Below are positions 4,093 to 5,351 of a stretch of DNA of 64,000 nt, piece by piece. Numbering within the stretch: position 1 is the stretch's first letter; each line of letters starts with the position of its first letter. The notes beneath the pieces are model-generated. The model did no database searches, was not told the DNA's origin, and saw only the letters and a program-made list of their open reading frames with translations. The stretch comes from Chelatococcus caeni (lineage in GTDB: Bacteria; Pseudomonadota; Alphaproteobacteria; Rhizobiales; Beijerinckiaceae): positions 62,001 to 126,000 of the forward strand of contig NZ_JACIEN010000003.1 in NCBI RefSeq assembly GCF_014196925.1, written 5' to 3'. The translations under genes and the position numbers were made by a program.

Positions 4093-4142
4093 AGGCCGTC
4101 GGCAGTCGTGAGATGTGTCGACTGCCGATCTGCCGACGGCCT
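4093..4142. repeat. Palindromic CGGCAGTC-type repeat between convergent genes (possible bidirectional terminator)
   Basis: The outer arms AGGCCGTCGGCA (4093-4104) and TGCCGACGGCCT (4131-4142) pair perfectly. A nested alternative pairs CGGCAGTCG (4100-4108) with CGACTGCCG (4119-4127). The right arm overlaps the argC stop codon. The motif CGGCAGT is shared with the element between rpoA and rplQ, which suggests a dispersed repeat rather than a purpose-built terminator. Confidence 0.6.
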
Positions 4143-5118
4143 AGACTCCCAGCATCAACCGGATGTTCTGCACCGCCGCGCCCGAGGCGCCCTTGCCGAG
4201 ATTGTCGAGCCGGGCGACGAGCACCGCCTGCCGCCGCGCCTCGTTGGCATAGACCCTGAGCTCCAGCCGGTCGGTGTCGTTGAGCGCCTCGGGCTCGATC
4301 TTGCCGCCCGTGACGCTCGCATCGTCCTGCCGGGCCACCGAGACGAGCTCGCTCACCGCATAGCGCGTGGCGAGCACCGCCTGCAGGTCGGCTCCCGTCG
4401 GCCGCTCCGGCAGGGTGTCGAGGTGCAGCGGGATCGACACCAGCATGCCCTGGCGGAAGTTGCCGACCGAAGGCACGAAGATCGGCCGCCGCGAGAGGCC
4501 GCAATAGGCCTGCAGCTCCGGCAGGTGCTTGTGCTCGAGGCCGAGGCCGTAGAGCTCGAAGGACGGCGCCGTGCCCGCCTCGTAGGCCTCGATCATCGTG
4601 CGGCCGCCGCCGGAATAGCCGCTGACCGCATTGACGGTGACGGGATAGTCCGCCGGCACGAGCCCGGCGTCGACGAGCGGCCTCAGAAGCGCGATCGCCC
4701 CCGTCGGATAGCAGCCCGGATTGGACACCATGCGCGCCCCGGCGATCGCCGCGCGCTGGCCCGGCGTCATTTCGGCGAAGCCGTAGACCCAGCCCGGCGC
4801 CACCCGGTGGGCGGTGCTCGCATCGAGCACGCGCGGACCGGCCTCTCCCAGGGCCTCGACGAGCGCCACCGTCTCCTTGGCGGCCGCGTCCGGCAGGCAG
4901 AGCACGACGAGGTCGACGTCGGCGAGCAGCGCCTTCTTCGCCTCCACGTCCTTGCGCAGCTCCGGCGCGATGGACCTGAGCTCGACCTGCGGCAGCGCCG
5001 AGAGCCGCTCGCGGATGCCGAGGCCCGTGGTGCCGGCCTCGCCGTCGATGAAGACGCGCGGCGCCCGCGCACCCGCAGCCTTGGCCCGGGCGGGATTGAG
5101 AAGCGAGGTGTCGTTCAT
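4141..5118 (-). CDS. argC: N-acetyl-gamma-glutamyl-phosphate reductase
   Basis: ArgC reduces N-acetylglutamyl-5-phosphate to the semialdehyde with NADPH, the third step of arginine biosynthesis. The sequence shows the nucleotide-binding segment [18 protein letters not shown] near residue 20 and the catalytic cysteine motif [13 protein letters not shown]. At 325 residues it fits the shorter type 2 AGPR family. I chose the ATG at 5118 because CAGGAG lies 6 bases upstream. The open frame continues to 5265, but the added residues read through the terminator region and do not match the family. Upstream lie a candidate arginine-responsive leader and then speB. Confidence 0.95.
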
Positions 5119-5198: not shown

Positions 5199-5224
5199 AA
5201 AAAAGCCGCGCTTCAAGCGCGGCT
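5199..5224 (-). terminator. Intrinsic terminator in the argC leader (candidate attenuator)
   Basis: On the minus strand AGCCGCGCT-TGA-AGCGCGGCT forms a perfect 9-bp stem with a 3-base loop, followed by six T residues counting the last stem base (5204-5199). It lies between the 21-codon leader ORF and argC, about 80 bases before the argC ATG, so transcripts reaching argC from the leader promoter must read through it. Confidence 0.85.
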
Positions 5225-5248
5225 CCGATCACGACACGCGAGGTCGCG

Positions 5249-5314
5249 TCATCGCACGCGCGCAAGGGCGGCGCGGCGGCGTCGGTTCAGCGTGGTGTGC
5301 GCGACGGTGATCAT
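5249..5314 (-). CDS. Putative arginine-rich leader peptide of argC (21 aa)
   Basis: This short ORF reads [10 protein letters not shown], then four consecutive Arg (CGA CGC CGC CGC), then AALARVR and a TGA stop. Six of its 21 residues are Arg. Its ATG is only 8 bases from a well-formed -10 box, so the transcript would be leaderless or nearly so, and no Shine-Dalgarno is seen. A perfect intrinsic terminator begins 25 bases after the stop codon, and argC follows. Candidate pairings in the leader RNA include codon bases GTCGCG (5300-5305) with CGCGAC just after the stop (5243-5248), GATCAC (5307-5312) with GTGATC (5227-5232), and a small ACGCG/CGCGT hairpin after the stop (5236-5249). The layout equals that of amino-acid attenuators. 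Function is inferred; Arg codons are common in GC-rich DNA, so conservation must be tested. Confidence 0.6.
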
Positions 5315-5322
5315 GGGGCACG

Positions 5323-5351
5323 CTTATCCGGGAAAGCGGCGCCGGTGTCAA
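5323..5351 (-). promoter_or_regulatory. Sigma-70-like promoter for the argC leader
   Basis: On the minus strand a consensus -35 TTGACA (5351-5346) is followed by a 17-base spacer and GATAAG (5328-5323, 4 of 6 matches to TATAAT). The expected start point is at or within a few bases of the leader ATG at 5314. A perfect -35 with ideal spacing is rare in this window. Confidence 0.75.

Follow-up and report, generated by a model that had tools for sequence, protein, structure and literature searches.

A 64,000-nucleotide stretch of the Chelatococcus caeni genome (the window) very probably carries, immediately ahead of argC, a conserved and arginine-specific ribosome-mediated transcription attenuator for arginine biosynthesis. 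The original prediction, made from this stretch alone, had read the locus as an arginine attenuator before argC, and comparative sequence evidence now strongly supports that reading. Such a switch would provide a testable answer to the question of how bacteria that lack the ArgR repressor adjust arginine synthesis. It is compact and recognisable by sequence, it is found in two proteobacterial classes (alphaproteobacteria and some betaproteobacteria) before argC, argJ or argD depending on the lineage, and its codon choice sharply predicts which tRNA would be sensed.

Architecture of the leader upstream of argC

The elements of the locus are as follows.

5346..5351, minus strand: −35 box TTGACA, read from the sequence
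5323..5328, minus strand: −10 box GATAAG, 17 nt from the −35 box, read from the sequence
5249..5314, minus strand: leader ORF of 21 codons plus stop, in a frame conserved among leaders; ATG at 5314-5312, 8 nt past the −10 box, and stop TGA at 5251-5249
5273..5284, minus strand: Arg run CGA CGC CGC CGC, the putative sensor, as judged from codon choice in 58 leaders
5249..5263, minus strand: ORF tail GCGCGCGTGCGATGA, including the stop; antiterminator strand as predicted by folding of the nascent RNA
5204..5224, minus strand: intrinsic terminator hairpin AGCCGCGCT-TGA-AGCGCGGCT, a perfect 9-bp stem with the loop TGA
5199..5204, minus strand: terminator T run of six T, one of them inside the stem
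4141..5118, minus strand: argC, N-acetyl-gamma-glutamyl-phosphate reductase of the argC_other type (NCBIfam TIGR01851)

Along the minus strand, promoter, short ORF, intrinsic terminator and structural gene thus follow one another in the layout of a ribosome-mediated attenuator. The promoter is sigma-70-like in sequence and, because the ATG follows the −10 box so closely, the leader mRNA is probably leaderless or nearly so. Two further Arg codons lie close to the end of the leader ORF. The structural gene was assigned through NCBIfam (TIGR01851, 399 bits against a cut-off of 230, E 1.2e-119), and its ATG, at 5118, is separated from the T run by 80 nt. Direct reading confirmed the promoter, its spacing, the 21-codon ORF, the Arg codons, the 9-bp terminator and the six T residues, all of which had been described before, and the architecture is, judging from the conservation counts given below, far beyond chance. 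Upstream of the leader, between 5380 and 5700, the window also contains dense short repeats of the CTCCCC..GGGGAGG type, which by eye are missing at the equivalent place in L003, a locus taken as C. composti.

Conservation of leaders upstream of argC in the family

A first survey covered 30 argC loci out of 41 genomes and identified the full architecture in ten of them (by eye and by script), including one, L028, in which the downstream gene is the other, type-1 argC. Among the remaining loci, one (L017) has an abbreviated version in which no clear terminator is seen, and in several argC comes after rpsI or an agmatinase-like gene. The ten leaders, from ATG to T run and with the promoter left out, were used to build a covariance model, R1, which matched at E ≤ 1e-3 in 135 of 397 genomes of the family. 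All 104 matches of at least 47 bits, ten of them the training sequences, lie just upstream of argC: the 97 that were checked by coordinates are all 14-135 nt from the argC alignment, and the other seven were seen as loci. Matches below 47 bits were checked in part. When 15 loci with scores of 36-43.4 bits were fetched (L098-L112), five proved to be leaders before argC (L098, L101, L105, L106 and L107), and the other ten had no argC within the 2 kb fetched. Seven further weak matches were rejected as leaders, since by eye they look like gene-end terminators. In the remaining 262 of the 397 genomes R1 found no match at E ≤ 1e-3, though this type of argC is present in 374 of the 397, and in one large genus (g9) there were just two matches, both weak; argC without a leader also occurs.

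The promoter is preserved together with the ORF. Within a set of 58 leaders the −35 box is TTGACA in 57 and TTGACT in one; this set had been selected for these two hexamers, and 48 of its members were found by R1, a model built without the promoter. The commonest −10 hexamers at equal spacing in relatives are CATATC and CATATA. With the search limited to 28-34 nt, the distance from TTGACx to the ATG came out at 29-32 nt in all 106 leaders. As had been proposed as a check on relatives, the ATG, the Arg run, the stop and the terminator are kept while the remainder drifts, and this holds before argC, argJ and argD. At one of the weaker loci (L105, G198:C10) a stretch of some 115-120 bp was seen by eye to occupy the loop of the terminator in the argC leader and to separate the two arms, in what amounts to a natural disruption of the terminator.

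Reading frame, codon choice and tRNA

In a count made without any ORF requirement, 118 of 120 distinct leaders have the core of the Arg run, CGAYG, in the frame of the ATG that the promoter sets; in the two exceptions the first CGAYG match is another one and the in-frame CGAYG comes later. Beyond the core the frame is open in 120 of 120 leaders, and a stop codon follows 7-18 codons past it. The residues ahead of the Arg run vary almost freely across genera. In the longest Arg run of each of the 58 leaders, which were chosen without requiring CGA, we counted 66 CGA, 58 CGC and 42 CGT codons and neither CGG nor AGR, and 57 of the 58 runs contain a CGA. By comparison, CGG and AGR together make up 45% and CGA 0.7% of the Arg codons in argC of the same loci, and the corresponding figures for a script-picked set of 40 ORFs in the window are 27% and 4.9%. 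These codon and frame counts are not independent, because the leaders are related to each other. Three leaders found by the covariance model before argC (L087, L097 and L101) encode Arg-Cys-Arg: they keep the CGA, in a core that reads CGA-TGC, and have no Arg-Arg pair.

CGA, CGC and CGU are decoded by the anticodon ICG. A search of the genome turned up 45 tRNAs, in which tRNA-Arg is represented by the anticodons ACG, CCG, TCT and CCT and not by TCG, so that a single tRNA-Arg(ACG) would serve CGA, CGC and CGU. On the evidence of frame and codon choice, the leader ORF is very probably translated and would count tRNA. The stall model does not account for the Arg codons close to the stop, which may be no more than by-products of the GCGCG tail. 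More tentatively, since we hold this somewhat less likely to be right than wrong, the leader could be an isoacceptor-specific sensor of the charging of tRNA-Arg(ACG) alone, and possibly of its inosine modification too, with the disfavoured CGA deliberately placed to slow translation, within the run and again in the final position ahead of the stop. On that reading it would also be the general arginine switch of those proteobacteria that have no ArgR, lying before argC, argJ or argD according to lineage. A search for ArgR (PF01316) was negative in all 21 genomes searched, including that of the window, with controls positive in nine of 14; some other control of arginine synthesis is therefore to be expected.

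Terminator and predicted antiterminator

In an alignment of 45 leaders all 315 cells of the seven-pair core of the terminator stem are paired, and both sides have changed at two pairs, although the full pairing is partly imposed because these leaders were chosen with a terminator pattern. We folded the nascent RNA of the 45 leaders as far as the 5' arm of the terminator, with a ribosome placed at one of two sites, the Arg run and the stop codon. A ribosome at the Arg run gave a mean pre-pairing of the 5' arm of 0.84, against 0.50 for one at the stop, and the value was greater in the former position in 43 of the 45 leaders; dinucleotide shuffles already reach 0.71, so that GC richness accounts for much of this pre-pairing and the excess is modest. 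The ORF tail and stop region are involved in 92% of the pairing of the 5' arm, and the duplex between tail and arm has a small excess of energy over shuffles (−10.2 versus −9.5 kcal/mol). In L088-L090 the tail has GCGGCTG in place of the usual GCGCG, which by eye is still complementary to AGCCGC of the terminator arm. Because there is so little variation in the terminator arm, the alternative pairing cannot be proven by covariation. A hairpin at the stop codon is weakly indicated (mean z −0.83 across the 45 leaders, 40% of them below −1).

These predictions make pairing of the ORF tail with the 5' arm of the terminator the most likely antiterminator. The 9-bp terminator is the stronger of the two structures, so any switching would have to be under kinetic control. 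As a mutually exclusive hairpin of the kind to be looked for by folding, this pair is predicted in 43 of 45 leaders, with high values in the shuffles too and scarce covariation. The case is otherwise with the pairings originally named, GTCGCG (5300-5305) with CGCGAC (5243-5248) and GATCAC (5307-5312) with GTGATC (5227-5232): both can be drawn in the window, but they are not conserved, and L004, taken as C. albus, has neither (by eye).

Leaders upstream of other arginine genes

To look beyond argC, GTDB species genomes were scanned with a DNA pattern made up of the Arg-run sequence and the terminator only, and hence blind to the downstream gene. The matches listed include at least 117 pattern loci, many in genera already met and some in the same genera as the covariance-model set. 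A script recovered the TTGAC-ATG-ORF architecture in 69 of the 117 loci among the matches listed, and the genes after these 69 are argC (62), argJ (three, all in Reyranella), argD (one), an unrelated gene (one) and the edge of the locus (two). In the argD case, L136, the ArgD frame breaks at residue 226, which places its ArgD under the curated cut-off. The unrelated case, L193 (5520-5670) from Hyphomicrobium sp. CS1BSMeth3, has an Arg leader before a cupin and a LysE-type exporter, and not a biosynthetic gene. The strict parse failed at 48 of the 117 listed loci; three of these (L218, L222 and L130) precede argC or argD and their leaders were found on reading, and the remaining 45 have none of the tested genes downstream or lie at a locus edge. 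Carriers by name are Bosea, Microvirga, Chelatococcus, Phreatobacter, Hyphomicrobiaceae MAGs, a Rhodobacteraceae MAG and Reyranella.

A second covariance model, R2, built from 45 leaders with the promoter included, matched at E ≤ 1e-3 in 62 of 297 genomes of the order and in 20 of 385 genomes of the class, several of the strong matches again being training sequences. The 20 order-level matches above 54 bits, assigned mostly by eye, comprise 18 before argC (the window's own included), one before argD (L265) and one before a RidA-family gene (L266); the five class-level matches above 84 bits comprise four before argC (again including the window's own) and one before argD, which is the L136 sequence again. 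One genome has two leaders, one ahead of argC and another ahead of argD. Within the alphaproteobacteria, argD leaders were found at L222 and L265, and both argC types, TIGR01851 and TIGR01850, are preceded by the leader. The RidA-family case (G993:C2) is an Arg leader, MSPYAINRRRQFENPARARGR, ahead of the RidA-family ORF on a contig that ends shortly after.

A draw from the phylum brought up two argD leaders outside the class, with quite different terminators. In an ArgD search of 15 mostly betaproteobacterial genomes, seven had ArgD at E ≤ 1e-100, four of them named betaproteobacteria, and an Arg-rich leader ORF lies ahead of argD in all seven (those of L344 and L347 were spotted by reading the sequence directly). 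A known leader was the reason for choosing three of the seven; the four not known beforehand to have one are Cupriavidus necator, Paraburkholderia tropica, G1324 and Thiomonas FB-6. CGA-CGY-CGY is kept in six of the seven argD leaders; the Arg-rich ORF of Thiomonas is looser and has no TTGAC box. In two of the seven the −35 box is TTTACA. By eye, the betaproteobacterial leaders keep the Arg run while their tails differ and their terminators differ in six of seven. As judged by these linkages, the leader tracks a function, arginine synthesis, and not a single gene. The original description of a leader ahead of argC in Rhizobiales therefore stands as to argC and proved too narrow as to range, since leaders also precede argJ and argD and reach the betaproteobacteria.

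Attenuation model and alternative explanations

Taken together, we propose that the transcript begins at the leader ATG or close to it and that a ribosome translates the leader while trailing the polymerase. With charged tRNA-Arg(ACG) in ample supply, the ribosome would get to the stop and mask the ORF tail, and the terminator would form ahead of argC. With charged tRNA-Arg(ACG) scarce, the ribosome would be expected to stall at the CGA-CGY-CGN run, leaving the ORF tail (GCGCG...CGATGA) free to pair, as folding predicts, with the emerging 5' arm of the terminator; the terminator would then be blocked and transcription would continue into argC, so that argC would respond to arginine. Support for this model comes from the promoter/ATG spacing, the frame, the Arg run, the codon choice, the terminator and the linkage to argC, argJ and argD, and from the folding, the tRNA set and the negative ArgR search; counting against it are the Arg-Cys-Arg leaders, the genes downstream of L193 and L266, the weakness of the antiterminator beside the terminator, the high pre-pairing of shuffles and the 262 family genomes without an R1 match.

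One alternative, which we consider highly improbable, is that the leader is the gene of a free-standing small RNA or arginine-rich micro-protein and that argC has its own promoter past the terminator. The 80 nt between the T run and the argC ATG in the window would allow this, and the trp leader peptide of Sinorhizobium meliloti has a published role in trans (PMC7298713), but the same architecture is found ahead of different arginine genes (two argC types, argJ and argD), the genome of the window has one R2 match at E ≤ 1e-3, and of the 92 leaders linked to argC, 16 have even the latest possible start of argC less than 45 nt past the T run, where a separate promoter would hardly fit. Even less probable, in our estimate, is a ribosome arrested by the nascent peptide acting jointly with a ligand (a polyamine, ornithine or an antibiotic) and not for want of charged tRNA, for which there is a parallel in Salmonella orf34, a leader that also has Arg-Arg and an Arg beside the stop and on which ornithine acts (PMC6386406). 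A sensor of peptide sequence would not need the restricted codon choice of the run, and five leader peptides gave no Pfam match at E ≤ 10, including to DUF2618, the orf34/SpeFL core, in a search whose HMMER filters may lose weak matches to such short peptides. In addition, the residues ahead of the Arg run are nearly free to vary between genera, and those of tunnel-sensing peptides are not so free.

Least probable of all is that the conserved CGAYG and GCGCG form an RNA element that binds a protein or metabolite, with the ORF incidental. The CGA is stricter than Arg sensing alone would demand, and the CGA-TGC cores of L087, L097 and L101 keep the nucleotide pattern while losing Arg-Arg, as such an element would allow; against it stand the position of the core, which shares the frame of the promoter-set ATG in all but two of 120 leaders and is followed by an open frame in every one, and the betaproteobacterial leaders, which by eye hold the Arg run despite other tails and, in six of seven, other terminators.

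Relation to known leaders

The enterobacterial his, leu, thr, ilv, phe and trp leader attenuators combine a codon run, a terminator and a competing antiterminator. They share this logic with the argC leader and differ from it in having Shine-Dalgarno sites, and we know of no Arg member among these classical leader-peptide attenuators. The orf34 leader of speF, also called SpeFL, is Rho-dependent and without an intrinsic terminator, whereas the argC leader has a perfect one. Like the argC leader, Salmonella orf34 has two consecutive Arg codons that sense arginine via ribosome pausing, and an Arg beside the stop; unlike it, orf34 controls a polyamine gene via Rho, exposure of a ribosome-binding site and RNase G, and in that report rare and frequent Arg codons acted alike and no intrinsic terminator was found (PMC6386406). 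Closer in lineage is rnTrpL of S. meliloti, a leaderless trp attenuator (PMC10117765) for which trans roles of both RNA and peptide are published (PMC7298713); rnTrpL/trpL senses Trp and sits before trpE, whereas the leader described here carries Arg codons and sits before argC. The uORFC-8-2 motif before cysS in Rhodobacterales, a predicted ribosome-mediated attenuator, is likewise a short uORF of alphaproteobacteria in which codons for the relevant amino acid stand in tandem, accompanied by a terminator, and differs in its Cys codons, in preceding a tRNA synthetase gene and in having the codons within the first stem (PMC8632094).

Several amino acids have leader-peptide attenuators, and we found none in print for arginine biosynthesis. 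In the open-access literature searched there was no Arg leader described before argC, argJ or argD, in keeping with the earlier remark that no such leader was known for argC in Rhizobiales, and arginine is not mentioned in the main text of a survey of premature terminators (PMC2965389) or in that of PMC6429828. An Rfam search of the window at gathering scores returned three tRNAs and no other RNA family; six weaker matches, with E up to 5, all lie under the cut-offs. One candidate, BcKCsr2 (RF02883), extends from the leader ATG to the terminator at 17.9 bits against a cut-off of 40 and was rejected: by eye, an above-cut-off Paraburkholderia member has no short Arg-run ORF from an ATG and no arg gene directly downstream.

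Other candidate leaders

The scans also brought up several other leaders. In L272 and L282, a leaderless ORF with an Arg run that contains no CGA lies before an FMN-binding (PF04299) gene, which is followed by argC. One R2 match of 35.9 bits (L235) precedes a crcB-like ORF and presumably resembles a fluoride riboswitch. In one large-genome genus of the order, leaderless ORFs rich in Thr and Lys, such as MFTTTKRTTKTTTAPGARGGVRA, are followed by a terminator before asd (L236, L269, L270, L271, L273 and L281; the asd assignment for L236 is by TIGR01296), and these are candidate attenuators by their sequence. A Thr/Lys-rich sORF, SEP5, in the 5'-UTR of a so-called aspartate dehydrogenase gene of Sinorhizobium has been suggested to be a leader (PMC10117765). 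Finally, at L244 (G674:C15:6826-6993) a leader ORF with six consecutive Thr codons is followed by a terminator and then by thrS (TIGR00418).
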